Shown here piece by piece: positions 1 through 16,720 of a DNA stretch of 20,617 bases. The DNA comes from Actinomycetota bacterium (GTDB taxonomy: Bacteria > Actinomycetota > Acidimicrobiia > Acidimicrobiales > UBA8592), in contig PAYW01000032.1 of NCBI GenBank assembly GCA_002715425.1, positions 1 to 20,617 of the forward strand. The letters run 5' to 3'. The notes under the pieces were generated by a model. The model made no database searches. It had not been told where the DNA came from and saw only the letters and a list, made by a program, of their open reading frames with translations. Positions within the stretch are counted from its first letter, which is position 1; each line of letters begins with the position of its first letter. The position numbers and the translations under genes are program-made.

Positions 1-213
1 GTGGATGTTCCCGAATGGGTGCACTTCAAGATCGCCGAACCTTCTCGAGAAATTTATATGTTCTTCCAGAGTTAATACCTGATTACGGAGAACTAAGACC
101 TTGTGTGTAAGCCATAGTTGCTTTATGTCGTCGACATTCTCGTCAGTAAGGTTCGCTAAATCAATTTCTTCGATTGCAGCGCCAAAGAAATTGTTCAACT
201 TCGTGACTTCCAT
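1..213 (-). CDS. TauD/TfdA-family dioxygenase, N-terminal part (cut by window edge)
   Basis: The first 71 codons read from an ATG at 213 down to base 1 with no stop. About 50 of these 71 residues match, without gaps, the N-terminus of the complete dioxygenase at 6773-7588 (shared VTKLNNFFGA, VDDIK, LWLTHKVLVLR), so this is a paralogue on the same strand. The family uses Fe(II) and 2-oxoglutarate to hydroxylate small substrates. The catalytic His-x-Asp and distal His would lie beyond the window, so activity cannot be judged. There is no Shine-Dalgarno sequence; a TACCTT hexamer lies six bases before the ATG, as expected for a leaderless mRNA. It is divergent from the repeat protein at 313. Its substrate is unknown. 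Confidence 0.88.
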   Translation of the reverse strand, partial: MEVTKLNNFFGAAIEEIDLANLTDENVDDIKQLWLTHKVLVLRNQVLTLEEHINFSRRFGDLEVHPFGNIH

Positions 214-6457: not shown

Positions 6458-6709
6458 ATGAGCGGAATAAAGGTTTGGATAGATCAAGATTTGTGTACCG
6501 GCGACGGTATCTGCGAGGAGATCGCTCCAGCTATTTTCTTCGGCGCTGATGATGGCCTCTACTACGTGAGGGAAGCAGGAACGGAAGCCCCCACAGAACC
6601 GACGCATAGTTTTCACGAACCTGTCGATGTCCCCGATGACCTTGTTGAAGCAACGATTGACGCAGCTGAGGAATGCCCGGGGGAATGTATTTTTCTCGAC
6701 GTTGAGTAG
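6458..6709 (+). CDS. Actinobacterial [3Fe-4S]-type ferredoxin
   Basis: The 83-aa acidic protein has the small-ferredoxin pattern of P450 redox partners. WIDQDLCTGDGICEEIAP gives C13 and C19, with Gly in place of the middle cysteine of a 4Fe cluster, and AAEECPGECIFLD supplies the C-terminal CP pair. That arrangement binds a 3Fe-4S cluster. An extra Cys lies in GECI, and a roughly 20-residue acidic insert at the middle makes it longer than the usual 63-70 aa. It carries single electrons in the cytoplasm, classically to cytochrome P450; the P450 at 12710-13975 is the only such partner in view but is not adjacent. The gene has its own promoter. Confidence 0.88.
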   Translation: MSGIKVWIDQDLCTGDGICEEIAPAIFFGADDGLYYVREAGTEAPTEPTHSFHEPVDVPDDLVEATIDAAEECPGECIFLDVE

Positions 6710-6772
6710 CCTCTGAAACAAACCCTCAAGCACTTACCTGAGACTAAAGGTCCTGATTATTACTACTAGGGT

Positions 6773-7588
6773 TCAAAATGGGCGATCACCGATAATTGTC
6801 GTTCGTTCCATCCTTCGATGAGCCGGTATGAAATCATCCGTTCCTGTGTGTTGAACGCAACGGTTATCCCACATAACCACTGTCGTATCGTCCCATCGAA
6901 CCCGGATTTGAATACTCGGATCACGAATCGCACCTGCTAATTTTCGAAGTAGGTACTGGCTTTCCTCTTTCTCGACACCATCAATGTGTGACGTAAAGAA
7001 GTTATTGGTATAGATAGCCTTTGCGCTTGTCTCAGGGTGTGTTCGTATCACTGGGTGGTGGACAAGAGGATACTTTTCCCTATCGACCCCATCTTCATCT
7101 TTTGGCGCTGAAGGGTTACTTTCCGTATACCAATCATGAGTCGCAGATAGCTCCCCTACTTTTCTTTTCGTTTCCGAATCTAAACGGTCAAATGCAGCTG
7201 TCGCGTCAGCGAAGCAAGTATCTCCACCTACTTCTGGGATAACTACTCCCCTGAGAATAGACCCCATTGGCGGGCTTTCTTTAAATGTCACATCAGAGTG
7301 CCAATCAGTTGCGAGCGCTCTCTTTGCTCCCCCTGCTTCAAGAATTAGTATCTCTGGGATATCCGGATCACCCCGATTTTTCTGAACGTGCGGGTGAGCC
7401 TCAAGATCGCCAAAATTTCGAGAGAAATCTACATGCTCTTCCGGAGTTAACACCTGCCCCCGAAGAACTAAAACCTTATGTGTAAGCCACAATTCCTTGA
7501 TGTCATCAACATGCTGCTCTGTAAGATTTGATCCATCAATTCCGTGGATTTCTGCACCAAAGAAATTATTCAGCTTCGTGACGTTCAT
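6773..7588 (-). CDS. TauD/TfdA-family Fe(II)/2-oxoglutarate dioxygenase
   Basis: This 271-aa protein is full length for the family. The iron facial triad is visible: H97 and D99 in TDWHSDVTF and H247 in CVQHTG. Arg residues at 258-262 (HRRMER) can bind the 2-oxoglutarate carboxylate. Such enzymes couple 2-oxoglutarate decarboxylation to substrate hydroxylation, for example of taurine, alkyl sulfates or phenoxyacetates; the substrate is not evident. The ATG at 7588 follows TAGGTT by six bases on the minus strand. A close paralogue begins at the left edge of the window, so the organism keeps at least two copies within about 6.5 kb. It is convergent with the ferredoxin gene and divergent from the SHOCT gene. 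Confidence 0.92.
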   Translation of the reverse strand: MNVTKLNNFFGAEIHGIDGSNLTEQHVDDIKELWLTHKVLVLRGQVLTPEEHVDFSRNFGDLEAHPHVQKNRGDPDIPEILILEAGGAKRALATDWHSDVTFKESPPMGSILRGVVIPEVGGDTCFADATAAFDRLDSETKRKVGELSATHDWYTESNPSAPKDEDGVDREKYPLVHHPVIRTHPETSAKAIYTNNFFTSHIDGVEKEESQYLLRKLAGAIRDPSIQIRVRWDDTTVVMWDNRCVQHTGTDDFIPAHRRMERTTIIGDRPF

Positions 7589-7594
7589 AGAAGA

Positions 7595-7600
7595 AACCTA
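7595..7600 (-). promoter_or_regulatory. -10 element TAGGTT of the dioxygenase gene
   Basis: On the minus strand TAGGTT, six bases, then the ATG at 7588; no ribosome binding site. Confidence 0.55.
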
Positions 7601-7684
7601 ACATGCAACTTTCGAACCTTCCAAAGGTCACCCTTGGCCACCATCGTGTTTGGTTTCCTGATCATACCTAACTTAGTTTTGCCC

Positions 7685-7690
7685 TAAACT
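7685..7690 (+). promoter_or_regulatory. -10 element TAAACT of the SHOCT gene
   Basis: CCTAAACTA recurs here as at 300 and 3876; the ATG at 7697 follows six bases after the hexamer. Confidence 0.6.
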
Positions 7691-7696
7691 AGGGAT

Positions 7697-7963
7697 ATGG
7701 CTGACTGGATGGAAGAACTAGAACGACTCGGAGAACTACGAGAAAAAGGTTTACTGAGTGAGGAAGAATTCGAGACAAAAAAGAGCCAACTGCTTTCTTC
7801 TAAGCAAGGTGCCCCAGTCCAACAAGTTGAAACAACTTTAAAGTGGGCTCCGATAAAACAGAAATATGTGCAACGTTTCAAGTGGGCTTTCGCCGTTTAT
7901 ATTCTCCTCTTCTTAACAGCAGCAATTTTTATTGCTACATTCATCATCCGGAACTTCTACTAA
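7697..7963 (+). CDS. SHOCT-domain membrane protein
   Basis: The 88-aa protein begins with a SHOCT-type helical hairpin at residues about 4-33 (LERLGELREKGLLSEEEFE, then KKSQLL), a module found at the ends of many bacterial proteins and thought to support oligomerisation. A polar linker and one transmembrane helix at about 64-84 follow. The protein would sit in the cytoplasmic membrane with the SHOCT module inside. No enzymatic function is suggested. It has a leaderless-type promoter and is divergent from the dioxygenase gene. Confidence 0.85.
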   Translation: MADWMEELERLGELREKGLLSEEEFETKKSQLLSSKQGAPVQQVETTLKWAPIKQKYVQRFKWAFAVYILLFLTAAIFIATFIIRNFY

Positions 7964-8069
7964 GTGACAGCATTTAGTCTTTTGAAGTACACACGTGTGA
8001 CCTAAATATCCAGATGAAGGCTCTCCGTTTTCAATTACAGGCCTTGACGAGGAGATAGCGGAGTAATTT

Positions 8070-8759
8070 TTACCTTTTCAGTTTTCTAAGACTGTTCGCT
8101 ACACGATTCTTTCTCGCATGATCTAATTTCAGATCATGCTTGTATCCAGTTTCCAGCATTGCTTCAAGCTCTTCTCCAGTAAGTTGACCTTCTAGCCCCG
8201 AATGGTCAACAAGAATTTGTCCTGCAGAAGGACGACACTCTTTGTCTCTCCAAGTTTCTGGTTTCCACATTCCGCCACGCATAAACGATTTCGCACAGTG
8301 AATAAAGCCAGTCTCTATTTGGACCACTATGGCAGTCTTCGGAGTCTTTAATTCACTCGAGAAACCCTCTAGAATTTCTCTATCGGTGGTGATGCAAGCA
8401 GAGCCATTGACCCGAAGAGTTTCTCCTAAACCAGGGATAATGAAAAGTAAACCAATTTTCCGTTGGTTGATAATATTTCGAATCGAGTCAAGTCGATTAT
8501 TGCCATTTAAATCTGGAATAGCGATATGTTTCTCGTCGAGTACTCTAACGAAACCTGCTGGCCCTCCTCTTGGCGAAACATCAAGGTTGCCTTCTGGACA
8601 GACGGTTCCCATAAGTAAAAAAGTTGAAGCCGCAATAAAATCTTGGCACCCCTGATCAAACTCACCAACTTCCTTATTAATGACTACATCAGTCGGAGGA
8701 CGGTAAAGATTGAGGAGCTCGTCCTCAGAGTTAATGATATTTAATGAGTCAAGATTCAC
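8070..8759 (-). CDS. PPOX-class FMN-dependent flavoprotein, MSMEG_1061/DR_2398 type
   Basis: The 229-aa protein has the split-barrel flavin fold of the pyridoxamine-phosphate-oxidase superfamily. Key pieces are FLLMGTVCPEGNLDVSPRGG (residues about 47-66), the IPDLNGNNRLDSIRNI segment that contacts FMN, IGLLFIIPG, and a C-terminal HCAKSFMRGGMW. That set matches the family with representatives MSMEG_1061 and DR_2398. It probably binds FMN or F420, but its substrate is unknown. The start is a GTG at 8757-8759, chosen because an in-frame stop lies a short way upstream; no clear promoter hexamer is visible. It is divergent from the MFS gene. Confidence 0.88.
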   Translation of the reverse strand: MNLDSLNIINSEDELLNLYRPPTDVVINKEVGEFDQGCQDFIAASTFLLMGTVCPEGNLDVSPRGGPAGFVRVLDEKHIAIPDLNGNNRLDSIRNIINQRKIGLLFIIPGLGETLRVNGSACITTDREILEGFSSELKTPKTAIVVQIETGFIHCAKSFMRGGMWKPETWRDKECRPSAGQILVDHSGLEGQLTGEELEAMLETGYKHDLKLDHARKNRVANSLRKLKR

Positions 8760-8910
8760 TTCTACGAAACCCCAATATTAAGAACTTCCCAATGGCTATC
8801 ATAACCTCTAAGATTTCTAAGGTCTAAACATCCAACAAGCAGCTAGCTTGACTGAGACAGCTGAATAGAAAGAGTTCTTCACCAACCTTTTGGACCCTGT
8901 TTATCTGGCC

Positions 8911-8916
8911 TAGTGT
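8911..8916 (+). promoter_or_regulatory. -10 element TAGTGT of the MFS gene
   Basis: TAGTGT lies six bases before the GTG at 8923. A TTGGAC at 8890-8895 could be a -35 element with a short 15-nt spacer. Confidence 0.55.
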
Positions 8917-8922
8917 TCTAGA

Positions 8923-10332
8923 GTGCGACCGTGGTCTAAAAAATCTTCTAAAGAAATAGATAAGGAGCAAAATCGGTTGCTGTGGGCCACATTAATTTGT
9001 GGTTTCATCGCTGGCTTTGACTCAACGAGCACGTTTATTCTTTTCCCTGCGATACGATCAAGCCTCGGAAATGGAGACACGGCAGCTACAACTTGGATAC
9101 TGACGATAGTGGGCATAGTGAGTTCAGCCGTACTTCTCCAAGCCGGACACCTAGCTGACCGCTTCGGCCATAACAGGATCATGATCACTTCGGCAGGAGC
9201 ATCCGTAGCCGGGTCGCTACTAAGCGCTGTTTCCCCTAACCTGTTCCTACTTGTAGTAGGCAGAGGATTACAAGCAGCAGCCCTAGCCGGACTCGGAGTA
9301 AGTTCGATAGCAATTATCGTCAGAGAAACCGAACCCGGCCTCCTCGCTACTGCTATGGGGAGATGGGCGTTTTGGACAGCTACAGCAGGTGTATCAGGGC
9401 CAATACTCTCATCAATTTTTGTCGAGTACACCTCTTGGAGGGTCCTATTCTTATCGGTTATCCCAATCAGTGCCATGGTGATTTATCTAGGGGTCCCATA
9501 CTGGAATACTGACCACCGTTCTTCTAAAAAATCCAAAATAGATTACCTAGGGACATTCGCTGCGATGGTCGGTATCTCGTTGTTTGTATTAGCTCTCCTA
9601 GAAGGAAATGACTGGGGGTGGGCTAGCCCCCAAACAAACATTTCCTTTGCAGCCGGGTTCCTATTTATAGCTTTAGTAGTGAGAAGATCGAAGACACACG
9701 ACTCGCCCGTTATCCCCTTACATGTGTTCTCAAATACAACATTTGTCCTTAGCGCAATCATCGGCTTTATCTCATCTCTCATGTTCTTTGGAATGTGGTT
9801 GGCTCTTCTGAGCTACGCAATTGATGTCTGGGGTTTCAGCCCTATGAAAACAGGCCTCCTACTGACCGTCATGCCAGGAAGCATGATTTTTATTGCGCAG
9901 CCAGCGGGCAGGTTCGCAGACAGAAACGGCTTCCGAGGCATCATGACCGGTGGCGCAATCATCTTCACCGTAGGTTTTCTCGCAACAAATCTAGTAGCCG
10001 GAGATTCACCTTCTATACCCTCAATGCTCCCAGCATTGGTAGCAGCAGGCATCGGCATGGCCACAATTCTGTCAAACACAACCGCAGTTGGAACACAAGA
10101 ACTCGAACCTTCACTTGTTGGAACCGGAACGGCGATACTACAGACCGGCTACAGAATTGGCGGCTCATTAGGATCAGCGGTCGTTGCCGCCATCCTCGAA
10201 TCAGGAACGATAGGAACAGTCACCACCCACAAATGGTCCTTATGGGCAATCATCATCTCGGGAGCTATAACAGGGATACTCTGCTCTTCAATCAAGAAAA
10301 AAGGGCCCATACCCGCTGCAGGAAACTCCTAA
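8923..10332 (+). CDS. MFS transporter, DHA2 (drug:H+ antiporter) type
   Basis: The 469-aa protein has about 14 hydrophobic helices, typical of the DHA2 branch. The family A-motif is visible as GHLADRFGHNRIM (residues about 75-87), followed by the antiporter-type GxxxGPxxG equivalent AGVSGPILSS near 160. Such proteins export drugs, dyes or metabolites against protons; the substrate is unknown. The start is a GTG placed at the expected 5' end of a leaderless mRNA. The heliorhodopsin gene follows 92 bases later in the same direction but with its own promoter element, so co-transcription is possible but not required. Confidence 0.88.
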   Translation: MRPWSKKSSKEIDKEQNRLLWATLICGFIAGFDSTSTFILFPAIRSSLGNGDTAATTWILTIVGIVSSAVLLQAGHLADRFGHNRIMITSAGASVAGSLLSAVSPNLFLLVVGRGLQAAALAGLGVSSIAIIVRETEPGLLATAMGRWAFWTATAGVSGPILSSIFVEYTSWRVLFLSVIPISAMVIYLGVPYWNTDHRSSKKSKIDYLGTFAAMVGISLFVLALLEGNDWGWASPQTNISFAAGFLFIALVVRRSKTHDSPVIPLHVFSNTTFVLSAIIGFISSLMFFGMWLALLSYAIDVWGFSPMKTGLLLTVMPGSMIFIAQPAGRFADRNGFRGIMTGGAIIFTVGFLATNLVAGDSPSIPSMLPALVAAGIGMATILSNTTAVGTQELEPSLVGTGTAILQTGYRIGGSLGSAVVAAILESGTIGTVTTHKWSLWAIIISGAITGILCSSIKKKGPIPAAGNS

Positions 10333-10412
10333 TAGTAGGAAACGCTCAAGTCTATAAATCTCCAAACCTAAGAAATCTAATGGATACATAGGTCTACGCC
10401 TAACTTGATTAC

Positions 10413-10418
10413 TACTCT
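10413..10418 (+). promoter_or_regulatory. -10 element TACTCT of the heliorhodopsin gene
   Basis: TACTCT lies six bases before the ATG at 10425, with no ribosome binding site. Confidence 0.55.
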
Positions 10419-10424
10419 TCTCAT

Positions 10425-11183
10425 ATGAACTTAGACATAAATAACTTCCGGAAACTGAACTTCTGGGCAGGGTGCCTCCACCTCATCTCCTTTGTATTGA
10501 TCCTTGCCCTATCAAACGACGCTTCACTACCTGTCGTCGCGACGTACCTAACGGAAGCCCCAGGTACCGGAAATTTTTCAGATCCCGTCAATTTATTTAA
10601 TCTGAATATCAGTTACATGGTTGCCGCATTCATGGCGCTATCAGCATTCTTTCACTTCTTTATCTGCCTCCCATCTACCTTCAAAAAATACACAACGGGC
10701 CTGAAGAGAGGAATAAATTCATATCGATGGATCGAATACTCCTTGTCATCCACAATCATGATCATTGTTATCCTTCAGTTAAATGGAACCGCAGACTACA
10801 TCGCCCTTCTAGGAATCTCTGGAATCAATATCTGCATGATTCTGTTCGGCTGGCTTCAAGAACGGTACGTAAAAGCAGGTCATGGAGATTTACTGCCATT
10901 CTGGTTCGGCTGCTTTGCCGGATCTATTCCATGGATCGCAACAGCTCTGAACCTGATAGCTCCTAAAGGACCATCTGAAGCCACAACACCGGGGTTTGTG
11001 TACGGTATTGTGATCTCAATTTTTTTGTTCTTTAATTGTTTCGCCCTCGTCCAATGGAAGCAATATCGGGCAAAGGGCAAATGGGCGAATTATCTCCATG
11101 GAGAACGGATATACATCATTCTGAGTTTCGTCGCGAAATCGCTTTTAGCGTGGCAGGTGTACTCCGGCTCGTTAGCGAGTTAG
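10425..11183 (+). CDS. Heliorhodopsin
   Basis: The 252-aa seven-helix protein closely follows the prototype actinobacterial heliorhodopsin 48C12 as I recall it. RWIEYSLSSTIMI in helix C carries E104, the counterion (E107 in 48C12). LLPFWFGCFAGSIPWI and GFVYGIVISIFLFFNCFALVQ mark helices E and F. FVAKSLLAWQVYSG in helix G carries K238, which forms the retinal Schiff base. The two conserved histidines in the cytoplasmic half, H19 and H77, are also present. Heliorhodopsins are light-sensing retinal proteins with inverted membrane topology (N-terminus inside), a long photocycle and no established ion pumping; their role is still open. No retinal-forming oxygenase is in the window. It is convergent with the gene ending at 11196, 12 bases away. 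Confidence 0.97.
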   Translation: MNLDINNFRKLNFWAGCLHLISFVLILALSNDASLPVVATYLTEAPGTGNFSDPVNLFNLNISYMVAAFMALSAFFHFFICLPSTFKKYTTGLKRGINSYRWIEYSLSSTIMIIVILQLNGTADYIALLGISGINICMILFGWLQERYVKAGHGDLLPFWFGCFAGSIPWIATALNLIAPKGPSEATTPGFVYGIVISIFLFFNCFALVQWKQYRAKGKWANYLHGERIYIILSFVAKSLLAWQVYSGSLAS

Positions 11184-11195
11184 GACAGTGCCTCT

Positions 11196-11549
11196 TTAAA
11201 TAGCAATTGAGTCAGGTTGATAATCAGCAAAATTGATTATGCATCGAATGGTTTTGCTAACTTCTTCTTCTTCAGTGTCGTACTCTTCGAATTCATAATT
11301 TTGATAAACAGTCTTTAACTTGTTGAAATCATCTTCATCAATGCTGATTTCAAATTGTGGCTCTGACATGAAGCATCCGCCGCCACACTGTTCTCTTGTT
11401 GATCCGAAAATCAAATCATCATTTTGTAGTTGGAGTGCAGATTTAACACACTTTTGTACTATTTCTTCATTAGAAGCAATAGAGTGCTTCTTCTTTAAGC
11501 CATCTATGACTTCCATGTGAGTGTCTTTTAAATACAAACTAAATTTCAT
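11196..11549 (-). CDS. Possible tandem ribbon-helix-helix protein with CxxxC motif
   Basis: I do not recognise this 117-aa acidic protein. Its N-terminal part, MKFSLYLKDTHMEVIDGL then an SNEEIVQKCVKSAL helix, has the strand-helix-helix rhythm of a CopG/Arc-type ribbon-helix-helix. The C-terminal half (FEISIDEDDFNKLKTVYQ to EVSKTIRCIINFA) repeats that rhythm, so one chain could form a pseudo-dimer. A loop between them holds EQCGGGC, a possible metal or redox site. The gene is divergent from an iron-siderophore binding protein, with an IdeR-like box between them, so a role in metal-responsive regulation is an attractive but unproven inference. A TAATAT hexamer lies nine bases upstream of the ATG. 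Confidence 0.65.
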   Translation of the reverse strand: MKFSLYLKDTHMEVIDGLKKKHSIASNEEIVQKCVKSALQLQNDDLIFGSTREQCGGGCFMSEPQFEISIDEDDFNKLKTVYQNYEFEEYDTEEEEVSKTIRCIINFADYQPDSIAI

Positions 11550-11601
11550 TATTTGCCCATATTAGATTTTAAAGAGAAAATTCTCTGTGTTTACTATTCT
11601 G

Positions 11602-11620
11602 TTAGGTGAGCCTAACATAT
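11602..11620 (+). promoter_or_regulatory. IdeR/DtxR-like iron box
   Basis: TTAGGTGAGCCTAACATAT closely follows the known DtxR/IdeR consensus TTAGGTTAGSCTAACCTAA, keeping both TTAGG and CCTAA half-sites around the centre. It overlaps a TATACT -10 element (11618-11623) for the binding-protein gene, the position expected for iron-dependent repression. Confidence 0.78.
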
Positions 11621-11647
11621 ACTTCTATTATCCCCCAAATCAGAACC

Positions 11648-12667
11648 ATGTTAAAAAAAATTCCACTGATAATCTTTTCTACAGCTGGCCTTTTGTGTGG
11701 CCTTGTCGCCTGTGGCAATTCAACACAAGTCGCTAGCCCGACCCCTGGATCAGAACCCACCGTTGAACAACAACCCGAAGATATTATTGAAAAAGAAGGA
11801 GAAGATGAAATAGTAATAGAAAAAGAGACCAATGGTGAGGCCGAAAATCTGAATAGGTCTGATGAAGTTGCACCAGAGCCGACACCCTCTAGACGGCTTG
11901 TTGTTATCGGAGAGGATTTTGTTTTAGCCGATGTATTGGCTATGGGGGTGGTTCCAATAGCTGCAACGGCAACACTTAATGACAAATTTACTGGTATTGA
12001 AAGAGATACAACTGGAATTCAACCACTTCCATCTACCGAAGCGAACTTCGAATTACTCGCTTCGCTAAAACCTGATTCAATCATTACAACAGAAAATATC
12101 CTCAACTACGTTGATCAAGATTTACTAGATGGAATTGCCCCAACTAGTGTCATTTCTGGTGAAGGCTGGCGTGAACGAGTAATGAGTTTAGGAGAAATCT
12201 TAAATGCGCCATCTCAGGCTGACGCGCTACTTGCTGATTACGATTTAGCTATATCAAATGCGAAGGCGGAATTAAGTGGTGATATTTCAGTTTCACTAGC
12301 GACTATCTATCCGGGGTCGAACATTGCTGTTTGGGTAGATGGGCCAAGTAATATTCCTCAAACTATTTTGGATATGGGGATAGAACTTTCCCCCGGTATC
12401 AATAGCTACTCCTCTGCAATGAATGGGAGAGCATATATTTCAATCGAGAAAATTGGGGATTTATCTTCTCCGATAATTATCCTTTCACAATCAACAGCAG
12501 TTGAAGGCGAAGATGAATCTTTGCGAAACGTTCAAGATAACTCCCTTTGGAAAAATTTACCTGCAGTAACCTCTGGGAAAGTATCCACCATAGACCGTTT
12601 AGGTTACCCAGGAGTAGAAGGAAGGATCAGATTAATCAATGATCTAGTCGGGACAATACTGGAATAG
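11648..12667 (+). CDS. Iron-siderophore ABC transporter substrate-binding lipoprotein (FepB/FhuD type)
   Basis: The protein (339 aa from the ATG at 11648) begins with a lipoprotein signal: a KK charge, a hydrophobic stretch and the lipobox LVACG. An acidic Glu/Pro-rich linker of about 60 residues follows. The Peripla_BP_2 fold then starts at RRLVVIGEDFVLADVLAMGV; ELLASLKPDSIITT is the typical strand and turn of siderophore or haem binding proteins. It would capture a ferric complex outside the membrane and pass it to an ABC permease, which is not in the window. The longer frame from GTG 11606 would begin inside the iron box and add residues before the signal peptide, so it is rejected. The IdeR-like box predicts repression in iron sufficiency. 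It is convergent with the P450 gene. Confidence 0.9.
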   Translation: MLKKIPLIIFSTAGLLCGLVACGNSTQVASPTPGSEPTVEQQPEDIIEKEGEDEIVIEKETNGEAENLNRSDEVAPEPTPSRRLVVIGEDFVLADVLAMGVVPIAATATLNDKFTGIERDTTGIQPLPSTEANFELLASLKPDSIITTENILNYVDQDLLDGIAPTSVISGEGWRERVMSLGEILNAPSQADALLADYDLAISNAKAELSGDISVSLATIYPGSNIAVWVDGPSNIPQTILDMGIELSPGINSYSSAMNGRAYISIEKIGDLSSPIIILSQSTAVEGEDESLRNVQDNSLWKNLPAVTSGKVSTIDRLGYPGVEGRIRLINDLVGTILE

Positions 12668-12709
12668 TTCCTTTCATTTGAAACAGATGCCTCAAGACTT
12701 CGCAATGGC

Positions 12710-13975
12710 TTAGTTCCAAGCCACCGGAAATTTTCTTCTACCCCATAAAATAAACGGCTCAATTCTTTCAGGCTCATCTATAAGGCGGAGATTGGGGAAC
12801 CGCTCCGTAATTTCTTTAAGGGCAAGGCGGGCTTCGAGCCGTGAAAGTTGGGCGCCTGGGCAGAAGTGGACTCCTAAGCCAAAGGAGAGGTGCTTCCGTA
12901 ATTCTTCTGGTTCTCTGTCGAGACGGAAAGTTTCAGGGTCGTCAAATACGGCTGGGTCGCGATTAGCTGCTGCAAAAGTTGCCATTACCTTTGAACGCTC
13001 AGGAATTTTTTCTCCATGTAAATCAATATCAGCGGTATTGGTTCTATATAAGCCCAGGACAGGGGCGTCGAAACGCAAACTCTCCTCCACCGCAATTTTA
13101 TGCAAGGAAGGGTCGTCTCTTACTTGCTCGTACAGGTATCTGTCTAAAAGTAGCCGCCAGAAGAGGTTGGTTAGTAGCGATGTTGTGGTTTCGTTTCCGC
13201 CCACGAGTAGTTGGTTGAGCATCACTAAGCGTTCCTCGTCGGAAAGCATCCGGTTGTCAACCTCGGCTAACAAAATGCCGCTAATAACATCGTCAGGAAT
13301 AACATCCCCAATCAAGTCTTCGGCGTTATCGGTTTCATCGACTCCGGCATCATCTAGGAGGGAACGCCTTACATTTAGGTGTTCAAGCAGGTATGCGTTC
13401 ATGGCTTCGCGGGGGACTTTGCGGCCATCTTCTGAAGTGTTAGATCCGGCTAATTGGGCGTCGCTCCATGCTTTGAATTGGTCTATATCGTCCGTTGGTA
13501 TTCCAAGTATTTTGGCGATGACGATAACTGGCAGTGGGCATGCGAAATCGTCATGAAGGTCACCATGTGGTTTTTTAGCCATTTCATCTACGAGTTCTTT
13601 GACTAGCTGGCTGATTTCATCTTCCATTGCGGCTACGTGCCTAGGAGCAAAACTCTTTTGAATGAGTTTCCTGTACCACGTGTGCCCGGGAGGATCACTT
13701 TTGAGACATCCTTCGACTGAGTATCTGGGCATTTGGCCATAATGACTTGACCATAATTCGACGTTTGTAAGCATTGCAGCAACGTCATCGTATCTGGTGG
13801 TTGTATAGAGCGGGTAGGTGAAATCTTCGTGTTTGTGGACTGGGCAGGTTTCTCGTAAATCCTTATAGAACGCAAAGGGGTCATTTAAGACATCGTCAGA
13901 AAAAGGATCGAATACTGGCTTCCCCGGCATGTCGTTATCGTAGGAGAAATCTTCCGGTACCTCCAGTTCGTTCAA
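12710..13975 (-). CDS. Cytochrome P450
   Basis: The 421-aa soluble protein is full length for bacterial class I P450s. The I-helix oxygen-binding motif GGNETT lies at residues 259-264, the K-helix ExxR is E298-R301, and the haem loop FGLGVHFCPG at 365-374 provides the thiolate Cys372. P450s insert one oxygen atom into an organic substrate using electrons from ferredoxin; the ferredoxin at 6458-6709 is a plausible partner. The substrate is unknown. The start is a TTG at 13975 with no ribosome binding site; ATG at codon 16 is an alternative, close to where many relatives begin. It follows a small membrane-protein gene by 24 bases in the same direction, probably as the second gene of a transcript starting near 14212. 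Confidence 0.94.
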   Translation of the reverse strand: MNELEVPEDFSYDNDMPGKPVFDPFSDDVLNDPFAFYKDLRETCPVHKHEDFTYPLYTTTRYDDVAAMLTNVELWSSHYGQMPRYSVEGCLKSDPPGHTWYRKLIQKSFAPRHVAAMEDEISQLVKELVDEMAKKPHGDLHDDFACPLPVIVIAKILGIPTDDIDQFKAWSDAQLAGSNTSEDGRKVPREAMNAYLLEHLNVRRSLLDDAGVDETDNAEDLIGDVIPDDVISGILLAEVDNRMLSDEERLVMLNQLLVGGNETTTSLLTNLFWRLLLDRYLYEQVRDDPSLHKIAVEESLRFDAPVLGLYRTNTADIDLHGEKIPERSKVMATFAAANRDPAVFDDPETFRLDREPEELRKHLSFGLGVHFCPGAQLSRLEARLALKEITERFPNLRLIDEPERIEPFILWGRRKFPVAWN

Positions 13976-13999
13976 ATTGATGGCGCTAGCTAGAAGTAT

Positions 14000-14212
14000 C
14001 TAGACCAGTAGGGCACTAACAATTGTCCAAATTACTATGAGAGTTCCGATAACGATATTGAGCATGAAGATCTTCGGATGCTCATCTCTCGTCCCCCATC
14101 CATTTACTCTTCGGTTCCAGAATTTCTGATTTATCAAGCAATACATCACATAAGCCATCACAAGTAAGCCAATTACAAGTGATGCGACGTTTCCTACGGT
14201 AATCTGCGACAC
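14000..14212 (-). CDS. Small two-helix membrane protein upstream of the P450
   Basis: The 70-aa product has two hydrophobic helices (residues about 8-27 and 48-69) joined by a loop with NQKFWNRRVNGWGTRDEHPK. I do not recognise the family. The start is GTG 14212, five bases after TAGTAT on the minus strand. It ends 24 bases before the P450 gene and is likely co-transcribed with it, so it might place or assist that enzyme at the membrane (inference). An overlapping frame from 14285 reads through the same bases but gives no protein-like product. Confidence 0.62.
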   Translation of the reverse strand: MSQITVGNVASLVIGLLVMAYVMYCLINQKFWNRRVNGWGTRDEHPKIFMLNIVIGTLIVIWTIVSALLV

Positions 14213-14217
14213 ACCTC

Positions 14218-14223
14218 ATACTA
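14218..14223 (-). promoter_or_regulatory. -10 element TAGTAT of the small membrane protein/P450 unit
   Basis: TAGTAT on the minus strand ends five bases before the GTG at 14212. Confidence 0.45.
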
Positions 14224-14419
14224 ACGGCAAATACCAACTCTCTGATGAAGTACGGCGCACATAGGACAAAGCTTCGTGAAATCACTTAGAAACTTAGTGA
14301 GATAAAAACTTATGGACCACCTTTAACGGTTGATTACGAGGAGTATTAACTCTGGGGTTAAATTTCCGAAGATCACTCCTTAACGGTAATATCCTATAAA
14401 GAACTTATGGAGGAAGATA

Positions 14420-14695
14420 ATGATCTTTTTACTACAGGAAGAAATAGACGACTACGCAAAGTTCACTGCGTGGTTCAATAACGAAGCAGTACCCAAAATT
14501 GAAGCTGCTGGTGGTCGGGTTCTGGTCCAAGGCGTCGAAATGGAAAACGGAAACATGCTTCACCTAGTTATGGAGAGTCCAGACCAAGAAACTGTTGGAG
14601 CCTTCATGTCAGATGAGCAATTCACAGCGGATCGTATCGCTGCAGGAGTGCATGTTGAAACAACAAAGGTGACGTTCCTTAAGAGCCAAGTTTAA
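14420..14695 (+). CDS. Small protein, dimeric alpha/beta-barrel-like
   Basis: The 91-aa product alternates strand, helix, strand, strand and helix: MIFLLQEE, YAKFTAWFNNEAVPKIEAAG, RVLVQGVEM, MLHLVMESPDQETVGAFMSD and VETTKVTFL. That order and length resemble the ferredoxin-like dimeric barrel group (YCII, ABM or DUF1330-type proteins), whose members can be small oxygenases or have no known activity. No catalytic residue is obvious. The ATG follows TGGAGG by six bases, a strong ribosome binding site, and a TATCCT lies about 25 bases upstream, so this gene has a true leader unlike many neighbours. It is convergent with the reductase gene. Confidence 0.75.
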   Translation: MIFLLQEEIDDYAKFTAWFNNEAVPKIEAAGGRVLVQGVEMENGNMLHLVMESPDQETVGAFMSDEQFTADRIAAGVHVETTKVTFLKSQV

Positions 14696-14750
14696 GCTAG
14701 CCGCTTCAAATTCAAGCCTCTATTGCTTTAGTACTTTTGGACTCAAACTG

Positions 14751-15734
14751 TCAGGTGATAGATTGAGCGGTTTCTACTAGGGACTGGTCCATAGGAGTGG
14801 GTTCCCAACCAAGGATGTCGTACGTTTCTGCGTTGTTGACGGTTTGGCGCTCACCAACCATTGGCAATAGTCCCTTAACTTGTTCATCGAAAATACTCAT
14901 TATTCTCAAAAGAAACTTGGGCGCTTTCCTTGTTGAAGCTTTTTTGAAACCTGCGTTCTTTAGTATTGCCGTCATTTCTGTAAAGTGAAGTGGCTCATCT
15001 GATGATGCGATGAAGCGTTTCCCGACAGCTCCATCAGCTGTGAGCGCTGAAACGTGCAACTTGGCGACATCGCGAACATCTATAAAGCCAATCGTAATAT
15101 CAGGAACTAACGGGTATTTCCCGCTAATGATGTCAGAAATCGTCGTGAGGCTCTCTCCTTCGACTTTCCCTGTTAGTGTTGGGCCCATAACTCCCCCTGG
15201 ATTTATCACGACTAGATCAAGATCATTCTCCTCAGCAAAAAGCCACGCAGCCTTTTCGGCTAGGACTTTACTTTTAGCGTATGTGCCAATTTCTGCTTCT
15301 GGATCAGACCACGAGTCGGTCCCATAGTGGCCGCTTGGCTTACCGGCAATGATCGCTATCAAAGAAGACGTGACAACGGTACGTTCGATACCCGCTTTCT
15401 TGGCGGCCGATAAAACGCGCAACGTCCCATCTACTGCGGGAGAGATTATCTCATTCTCATCATCTGGGTTGGCGATAATGAATGGGGAAGCAACATGAAG
15501 AACGTACTTGCAGTCAGTCATCGCTTCTTGCCAGCCTTCATCTTTTGTGAGGTCAGTTTCAACGAATTTGAGATTCTCTACTGGTGCTACCTTCGCAATT
15601 CCTTCGCGAACTGCTTCAGCTTTTTCCAACGAACGAACAGTCCCTACGACTTCATACCCTTGTCGAAGAAGTTCAGCGCCACAATGCTGGCCTATATATC
15701 CTGTTACTCCTGTTACCAGTACTCGATCAGTCAT
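14751..15734 (-). CDS. NAD(P)-dependent epimerase/reductase, extended SDR (dihydroflavonol-reductase type)
   Basis: The 327-aa protein has a Rossmann start with the TGVTGYIGQH glycine motif (residues about 8-17) and a charged TVRS after the second strand. VVTSS at about 120 is the active-site Ser strand, and TYAKSK at about 152 provides the catalytic Tyr and Lys. NPGGVMGP follows as in dihydroflavonol-4-reductase-like enzymes and yeast Gre2. These enzymes reduce aldehydes or ketones with NADPH; the natural substrate is unknown. The ATG is preceded on the minus strand by GGAAGGAAAG, a ribosome binding site. It is convergent with the small barrel protein. Confidence 0.9.
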   Translation of the reverse strand: MTDRVLVTGVTGYIGQHCGAELLRQGYEVVGTVRSLEKAEAVREGIAKVAPVENLKFVETDLTKDEGWQEAMTDCKYVLHVASPFIIANPDDENEIISPAVDGTLRVLSAAKKAGIERTVVTSSLIAIIAGKPSGHYGTDSWSDPEAEIGTYAKSKVLAEKAAWLFAEENDLDLVVINPGGVMGPTLTGKVEGESLTTISDIISGKYPLVPDITIGFIDVRDVAKLHVSALTADGAVGKRFIASSDEPLHFTEMTAILKNAGFKKASTRKAPKFLLRIMSIFDEQVKGLLPMVGERQTVNNAETYDILGWEPTPMDQSLVETAQSIT

Positions 15735-15977
15735 AACTTTCCTTCCAAATACCTATTTAAGACTTACTTAAAAAAATTTAGGTTATCGAATTATACGTTC
15801 AACTTCTAGAAACCGTAGGCTGATCACCTTACTCAACTCTTTCAAATTCTAGGTAGTTAACTTGGCCTAACATTCGATGTTTGTTAGCGTAGCTAAAACA
15901 TTTCTGAAGCGAAGATGCAGTAGGAAGAGCACTACAGAAAATTGCTACGGAAATTTATAAAAGAAAGAGGTCAATTA

Positions 15978-16589
15978 ATGTATATTTCAGCTAGAAAAAT
16001 TACAGCCGCTGATGGAAGAATGGCTGACGCAACTGCCTTTGCTGCAATGGTGACAGAACGGATGAATGAAAAGTTCGGCACCACTCTTGGCTTAGGAACA
16101 GAAATAGGTGGAGACCCAAATGCTATTTGGCTTAATGGTAGGTGGGAATCACTAGGAGAGTACCAAGCATTTATGGAAGGGTTCTTTGCCGATCAGCAAT
16201 TTGTTACTGCGACAAGCATCACAGATTCCGTAGCTACAATCAGCTCCGATCAGATCAATAGAATTCATCGTGCCCCAGGTGAACGTGACGCCTTTGCCGG
16301 CGTTAGCACCGGAAGAATACTGGCGTCGAACTTTGTAGGAGCCATGGCATTTATTACTGAAATAGCAGAGCTAGCAACAAAAATCACTGGACGTGAAACT
16401 GGTGTAGCTCTACCTGTTACAGGTGACCGGTACGAAGCGAAATTTGTCCAATTTGGATCTTCGCTTCAGGATTTACAAGAACTTGATGAGAAACTGTTTG
16501 CCAACGAGGACTACCTTGCGCTATTCGCTCGATCAAGCGAATACATGGAACCACAGTTTGATTCAGTCTTTATTCAGAGAGTTCTATAG
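15978..16589 (+). CDS. Hypothetical protein with internal alpha/beta-barrel duplication
   Basis: The 203-aa product appears to contain two related halves. Each has a long helix (ATAFAAMVTERMNEKFG; AMAFITEIAELATKITG), a short turn with a G-x-(A/G)-x-x strand, and a closing helix with F-x-x-(D/N)-x-x-(F/Y). The pattern resembles a fused pair of ferredoxin-like barrel domains (NIPSNAP or ABM style). No function is recognised. The longer frame from 15942 is rejected: ATG 15978 is preceded by AAGAGGTCAATTA with a fair ribosome binding site. A strong terminator follows the stop, so this is a single-gene unit. Confidence 0.75.
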   Translation: MYISARKITAADGRMADATAFAAMVTERMNEKFGTTLGLGTEIGGDPNAIWLNGRWESLGEYQAFMEGFFADQQFVTATSITDSVATISSDQINRIHRAPGERDAFAGVSTGRILASNFVGAMAFITEIAELATKITGRETGVALPVTGDRYEAKFVQFGSSLQDLQELDEKLFANEDYLALFARSSEYMEPQFDSVFIQRVL

Positions 16590-16610
16590 CTCAAAGGGAT
16601 CTATAAGGAT

Positions 16611-16658
16611 GGGGCTTGGGTGTGGCGCTGAGCCGCATTCAAGTCCCAGCTATTTTTT
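16611..16658 (+). terminator. Intrinsic terminator with 16-bp stem
   Basis: The arms 16611-16626 and 16632-16647 pair over 16 positions (four are G-U) around a five-base loop GCTGA. TTTTTT follows at 16653-16658. It ends the transcript of the gene at 15978. Confidence 0.88.
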
Positions 16659-16720
16659 GCATTCAAATCAAATGGGCCGTTAAATCGGTCACATCTAGGG
16701 ACCTTGGATGACTATGTCAG

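Follow-up and report, generated by a model that had tools for sequence, protein, structure and literature searches.

The window, by which we mean the whole 20,617-nucleotide stretch of DNA analysed here, comes from what is probably a marine actinobacterium, the marine origin being suggested by isolate names. It carries a heliorhodopsin gene between an exporter gene and two genes on its other side, and the features on which this account turns are as follows.

8,923 to 10,332, plus strand: gene for a DHA2-like MFS exporter (PF07690), 92 bp before the heliorhodopsin gene; judged a passenger.
10,411 to 10,424, plus strand: promoter footprint, with TACTCT at 10,413 to 10,418 (TANNNT type of -10 element), 6 nt before the ATG.
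10,425 to 11,183, plus strand: heliorhodopsin gene, 252 aa from an ATG start (PF18761, NF038020 and alignment to PDB entries), with the residues H19, H77, R101, E104, M112 and S234-x3-K238 named from alignment and conservation.
11,196 to 11,549, minus strand: gene for a 117-aa tandem ribbon-helix-helix protein with a C55-x3-C59 linker, convergent to the heliorhodopsin gene; judged a passenger.
11,601 to 11,616, no strand assigned: operator-like inverted repeat, GTTAGG-TGAG-CCTAAC, in the gap from which the ribbon-helix-helix and lipoprotein genes diverge.
11,648 to 12,667, plus strand: gene for a Peripla_BP_2 lipoprotein, iron-siderophore-like (PF01497), in an open reading frame that runs from GTG 11,606; judged a passenger.

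The product of the central gene matches PF18761 over profile positions 2 to 242 of 242 (E = 3.2e-88; 295.6 bits against a cut-off of 26.7) and the NCBIfam equivalog NF038020 with 295.1 bits against a cut-off of 100. A phmmer search of the PDB matched it to six distinct sequences of solved heliorhodopsins, and the top three matches, 9ljj, 6su3/6su4 (heliorhodopsin 48C12) and 6uh3, cover residues 5 to 250 with E values of 5e-87 to 7e-87. In the alignment to 6su3, H19, H77, E104 and K238 fall on chain positions 23, 80, 107 and 241 of 48C12. Together, the two curated models and this alignment confirm the initial annotation, which had read the gene as a heliorhodopsin with exactly these four functional residues. 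The likeness to 48C12 (6su3, 6su4 and the near-identical 9ljj) extends to the same residues at chain positions 23, 80, 104, 107, 115 and 241, the window protein differing in having one residue more in a loop near residue 50. Both the S-x3-K retinal motif of helix 7 (S234 and K238) and the glutamate counterion of helix 3 (E104) are present, as judged from the 6su3 alignment and 233 homologues. Likeness to the solved structures leads us to expect seven helices in the inverted membrane orientation of the family. The roles given here to E104 and K238 follow those of E107 and K241 of 48C12, its counterion and its Schiff-base lysine, respectively. Mutants of 48C12 H23 and H80 have been studied (PMC7807009).

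All 120 close homologues listed have H, H, E and K at the four positions, and in the 113 loci of the survey described below H19 is kept in 108, H77 in 112, E104 in 111 and K238 in 112. The closest database protein among the matches listed is 96% identical to the window heliorhodopsin, and those of the seven nearest genome records (L001 to L007) are 80 to 98% identical; these records are labelled mostly Acidimicrobiaceae, Acidimicrobiales and Actinobacteria, with Microthrix also represented and L003 labelled Myxococcales. Three other records (L010, L013 and L016) with heliorhodopsins 67 to 71% identical to that of the window are labelled Bifidobacterium breve and are probably mislabelled.

Comparisons with L001, L002, L003 and L004 gave heliorhodopsin dN/dS values of 0.027, 0.042, 0.041 and 0.029, at dS values from 0.33 to 1.43, and the gene is under strong purifying selection. 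Seven neighbouring genes that were measured ranged from 0.03 to 0.26, the one neighbour pair below the corresponding heliorhodopsin value being the 91-aa open reading frame against L003 (0.030, compared with 0.041). Pairs with saturated dS were left out (heliorhodopsin with L005, L006 and L007, the epimerase gene with L007, and the 91-aa frame with L004), as was the lipoprotein gene, in which a stop ahead of the true start shifts the codons and makes the value an artefact. That the window gene might be a non-functional relic is practically negligible as an explanation: no evidence for it was found, and the complete frame, the full set of key residues and the dN/dS range of 0.027 to 0.042 all speak against it. 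Judged by its sequence, the window gene is a complete, maintained and ordinary heliorhodopsin of the typical actinobacterial type. Of 397 genomes drawn from the order, 117 exceed the Pfam cut-off, and 10 of the 20 genomes in the family of G001 (G numbers denote surveyed genomes) carry the gene. These counts contrast with a report of heliorhodopsins in only 4% of the genomes belonging to two marine Acidimicrobiales genera (PMC10205998).

The gene is preceded by TACTCT-TCTCAT-ATG, and no Shine-Dalgarno sequence was seen before the ATG, in line with the leaderless-type promoter proposed in the initial annotation. Each of the eight relatives compared shares with the window 10 to 14 of the 14 bases that precede the ATG, whereas in the more distant of these (L005, L006, L007 and G015) three further 14-base blocks upstream match at only 2 to 6 positions each. 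TACTCT becomes TAGTCT in L007 with its spacing to the ATG kept. This retention of element and spacing while the upstream DNA and genes change supports a leaderless promoter, although the leaderless start itself is deduced from the footprint. A TANNNT element alone would be weak evidence, since 4 of 14 other window genes checked have one at 5 to 8 nt from the start, and it is conservation that carries the case. A sigma-70 consensus scan did not list the TACTCT site, promoter and terminator scans of the window gave no more matches than shuffled sequences, and our literature search found no paper that joins heliorhodopsins with leaderless transcription. Other relatives (L011, L013 and L016) have Shine-Dalgarno-like bases instead. 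A published operon criterion for heliorhodopsins calls for a neighbour on the same strand less than 10 bp away (PMC8612252); in the window the heliorhodopsin gene starts 92 bp after the MFS gene and the next gene lies on the other strand, so by that measure it is outside any operon. Overall, the heliorhodopsin appears to be made from a single-gene transcription unit with its own promoter. The heliorhodopsin genes of L001 to L007 resemble that of the window in keeping the promoter footprint and differ from it in their adjacent genes, which vary by genome.

The initial annotation had suggested that, if the gene order were conserved, it would hint at a light-linked metal or export response. Gene order was compared in L001 to L007 and in a survey of the order covering 113 heliorhodopsin loci in 110 genomes (115 loci with the window and L003), with a mean of 14 kb visible per locus; most of the genomes are drafts, and an absence is therefore soft evidence. 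Left out of the 117 genomes above the cut-off were those with only a fragment of the gene (G201, G095, G244, G256, G119, G382 and G323), and partial second hits and three genomes under the cut-off were also omitted. Among L001 to L007, all three named neighbours (the exporter, ribbon-helix-helix and lipoprotein genes) occur only in L003, whose heliorhodopsin is 96% identical and whose genes from TRAM to the epimerase follow the order of the window, except that LLM and SHOCT were not found. L001 (98%) has the exporter and heliorhodopsin genes followed by the P450 gene, without window positions 11,185 to 12,708, and L002 has the heliorhodopsin, ribbon-helix-helix and lipoprotein genes with no exporter, PNPOx or P450 gene beside the heliorhodopsin gene. 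None of the three was found in the DNA examined of L004 to L007: L004 has the epimerase gene and the 91-aa frame beside its heliorhodopsin gene, L007 has the epimerase gene, and L005 and L006 have no window neighbour there. L003 (PBLQ01000024.1) is colinear with the window yet bears its Myxococcales label; PMC8612252 describes a contig of actinobacterial origin contaminating a Myxococcota genome, possibly this record.

Across the 113 loci of the survey, orthologues of the exporter, ribbon-helix-helix and lipoprotein genes were each found at a single locus. P450 relatives occurred at 11 of the 113, all but one at 24 to 33% identity and most of them several kilobases away. When crude open reading frames from the 115 loci were clustered by BLAST, no neighbour family was shared by more than five loci within two genes of heliorhodopsin or by more than four immediately adjacent to it, and the idea of a general hidden neighbour was rejected. 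Adjacent frames in close relatives include a GTPase and a Rieske oxygenase (L150), EamA (L147), a glyoxalase-like protein (L256), a glycosidase (L227 and L235) and glutaredoxin (L227), several have no Pfam match, and TerC is the second frame from heliorhodopsin in L237. Glutaredoxin and glyoxalase (PMC8612252) and TerC (PMC11109279) have been described as heliorhodopsin neighbours; here they are scattered. The light-linked metal or export reading rested on conserved order, and because the order is not conserved, with L002 lacking the exporter, L001 lacking the ribbon-helix-helix and lipoprotein genes, and the neighbours or their relatives occurring away from heliorhodopsin in other genomes, gene order does not support it. 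Since the exporter and iron genes come and go in close relatives, they are probably passengers. The wider region is partly stable, a counterpoint to any reading in which the neighbours do not matter: the window, L001, L003, L004 and L007 have the epimerase gene no more than about 5 kb from heliorhodopsin, and 91-aa and 215-aa frames lie downstream of heliorhodopsin in L001, L002 and L004, three records that also share a zinc ABC transporter. However, G006 (L319) and G026 (L320) have the ribbon-helix-helix, epimerase and zinc ABC genes on one contig with no heliorhodopsin gene in those stretches, that of G006 being on a different contig, and this backbone therefore does not need heliorhodopsin.

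The upstream gene encodes an MFS exporter by its PF07690 match (120 bits against a cut-off of 33.4). Its top NCBIfam match, TIGR00711 (DHA2/EmrB), scores 180.5 bits, below the cut-off of 230.2, and we therefore call it DHA2-like; the exporter named in the initial annotation stands, while its DHA2 membership is reduced to a best match. In L002, whose heliorhodopsin is 98% identical, a 54-bp stretch corresponding to window positions 8,902 to 8,955 (81%), that is, the bases before the exporter gene and its first codons, is joined directly to window position 10,370. By this alignment it is a remnant of a lost exporter gene, with the heliorhodopsin promoter left intact. The exporter and heliorhodopsin genes are also adjacent in L001 and L003. 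Exporter orthologues (about 72% identity) lie on contigs other than that of heliorhodopsin in G005, G006 and G015, and others occur in G022, G025 and G026 (split in G024), genomes in which heliorhodopsin was not found. The L002 remnant and the presence of an orthologue at only 1 of the 113 loci rule out a conserved exporter-heliorhodopsin unit.

The ribbon-helix-helix neighbour, put forward only as a possibility in the initial annotation, is borne out by its fold, with a single chain holding paired strand-helix-helix units. The 117-aa protein itself has no match in Pfam or NCBIfam, and among 48 of its homologues one matches RHH_1, weakly (E = 0.13). The family is unnamed and has an invariant pair of linker cysteines, spaced Cys-x3-Cys here and Cys-x2-Cys in its most distant members, and a third invariant cysteine at Cys103. 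With two strand-helix-helix units per chain the protein resembles a chain of the F-plasmid relaxosome, presumably TraY, and the single-chain Arc 1u9p; it differs from them in sequence (7 to 12% identity) and in having the Cys-x3-Cys linker and Cys103. A protein of this kind may possibly be a metal or redox sensor. Its gene occurs in 4 of the 20 family genomes: G002 has it beside heliorhodopsin, G006 and G015 have it on a contig other than that of heliorhodopsin, and in G026 it is present but heliorhodopsin was not found. In G015 (L258) less than 40 bp separates the PNPOx and ribbon-helix-helix genes, which share a strand; the exporter and heliorhodopsin genes, which stand between them in the window, are absent from that gap. 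The G015 order and the heliorhodopsin-free stretches of G006 and G026 rule out a conserved link of heliorhodopsin with this gene.

The iron-uptake lipoprotein of the initial annotation is likewise present, as a PF01497 binding lipoprotein of the iron-siderophore type, with NCBIfam FhuD-like matches well under cut-off. Its true start is probably ATG 11,648 and not GTG 11,606, as a stop lies between the two in L002 and L003. The gene was not found in L001, and it or a relative occurs in 3 of the 20 family genomes: beside heliorhodopsin in G002 (80%) and away from the heliorhodopsin contig in G006 and G015 (51 to 52%). Positions 11,602 to 11,620, overlapping the inverted repeat, differ at three positions from a DtxR/IdeR iron box, with 0.03 such matches expected. 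The repeat is kept, with changes, in L002 and L003; no DtxR/IdeR box with four or fewer mismatches was found there, and as the consensus is not kept in relatives the iron box is weak.

We consider it likely that the heliorhodopsin is an ordinary single-gene unit, probably a stand-alone light sensor, with unrelated passengers for neighbours; its exporter, ribbon-helix-helix and lipoprotein genes probably became neighbours by gene gain and loss, which makes one joint system improbable. K238 would carry retinal as a Schiff base, with E104 serving as the counterion, light would drive a slow photocycle in which H19 and H77 may lie near the proton path, and the protein would most likely sense light and act on a partner whose gene lies elsewhere in the genome. 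Heliorhodopsins that regulate the product of an adjacent gene (PMC9529153 and PMC11109279) count against a neighbour-independent reading. The operon-linked members of the same family, with glutamine synthetase (PMC9529153), an ABC exporter (PMC11109279) or photolyase (PMC9769723), are reported to share an operon with the gene they regulate, whereas the window heliorhodopsin is 92 bp from the preceding gene, has a promoter footprint of its own and is followed by a gene on the opposite strand. The ABC exporter case is also the precedent for light-regulated export, in which heliorhodopsin would bind and stimulate the adjacent MFS exporter, and the common strand, the 92-bp distance and the adjacency in L001 and L003 are in keeping with this. 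We regard it as very unlikely, since L002 has lost the exporter and kept heliorhodopsin and its promoter, the exporter orthologue lies on other contigs in G005, G006 and G015 and beside heliorhodopsin at 1 of 113 loci, heliorhodopsin has its own promoter footprint, and MFS proteins are absent from the ten neighbour groups named in the available part of PMC11109279. An ion-transporting or enzymatic protein in place of a sensor is quite improbable: viral heliorhodopsins transport protons (eLife 2022, as cited in PMC11109279) and an enzymatic role on carbonate or nitrate has been proposed (as cited in PMC7771536), but the closest solved relative is 48C12 and bacterial heliorhodopsins are described in PMC11109279 as lacking ion pumping.

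We also think it unlikely that heliorhodopsin modulates iron or zinc uptake, with nearby transport genes as its targets. Several family genomes have genes for iron or zinc transport no more than 8 kb from heliorhodopsin, a weak lead. An iron-type binding lipoprotein is encoded two genes from heliorhodopsin in the window, L002 and L003, and in G006 and G015 (L146 and L147) a PF01497 protein and FecCD permeases lie 2 to 5.5 kb from it, in an arrangement unrelated to that of the window. Downstream of heliorhodopsin by 5.7 to 7.7 kb, L001, L002 and L004 have an AztBC-like zinc ABC transporter (positions 12,208 to 16,664, 6,662 to 12,054 and 12,100 to 14,181 of the respective records), whose permease scores 283 bits with the NCBIfam AztB model, above the cut-off of 280, and whose binding protein falls below its own cut-off; a photolyase-related gene (PF04244) accompanies it in L001 and L002, and neither was found in the window. 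In "Ca. Actinomarinales" an Fe3+ ABC transporter, ferrochelatase and an iron repressor are reported near heliorhodopsin (PMC7771536), and both PMC8612252 and PMC9529153 mention that heliorhodopsin binds zinc; the part of PMC12422013 available on heliorhodopsin and iron gives no gene link. Against this, iron genes occur at 3 of the 113 loci in addition to the window and L003, as counted with profiles built from the G001 family, the binding-protein profile including members of those same loci. A DtxR profile matches none of the 115 loci, the zinc permease is found at 3 of 113, all within the G001 family, and the zinc transporter, epimerase and ribbon-helix-helix genes occur together without heliorhodopsin in G006 and G026. 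A 2-Mb genome has about two FecCD sites, which would put some 1% of random genes within 5 kb of one, so two iron arrangements near heliorhodopsin are not surprising. Below-cut-off FecCD matches on the heliorhodopsin contigs of G001, G002 and G004 proved to be zinc-type ABC-3 permeases. A broader and more speculative idea, to which we likewise give little credence, is that marine actinobacterial heliorhodopsins lie repeatedly beside metal uptake genes, which would point to metal acquisition tuned by light or to protection against metal chemistry that light drives, the cysteine-bearing tandem ribbon-helix-helix protein being a regulator that senses metal or redox state.

Retinal supply was considered at the genome level. 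The Blh-type enzyme (PF15461) was found in none of the 20 family genomes, which are mostly drafts, and in 7 of the 397 genomes of the order, 5 of these 7 also having heliorhodopsin; the search model therefore works, though the drafts are incomplete. Carotenoid oxygenases (PF03055), which may do other work, are present in 19 of the 20. Of the 10 family genomes with heliorhodopsin, 6 also have a type-1 rhodopsin above its cut-off, compared with 1 of the other 10.

Arguments about what heliorhodopsins do still lean mainly on their gene neighbours. The close relatives studied here provide a natural test of that approach, in which the gene and its promoter stay and each named neighbour is missing somewhere, and the loss of neighbours while heliorhodopsin and its promoter remain speaks against a guilt-by-association reading for this group. 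The result suggests that a partner should be sought elsewhere in the genome, and the metal lead can be tested across genomes.
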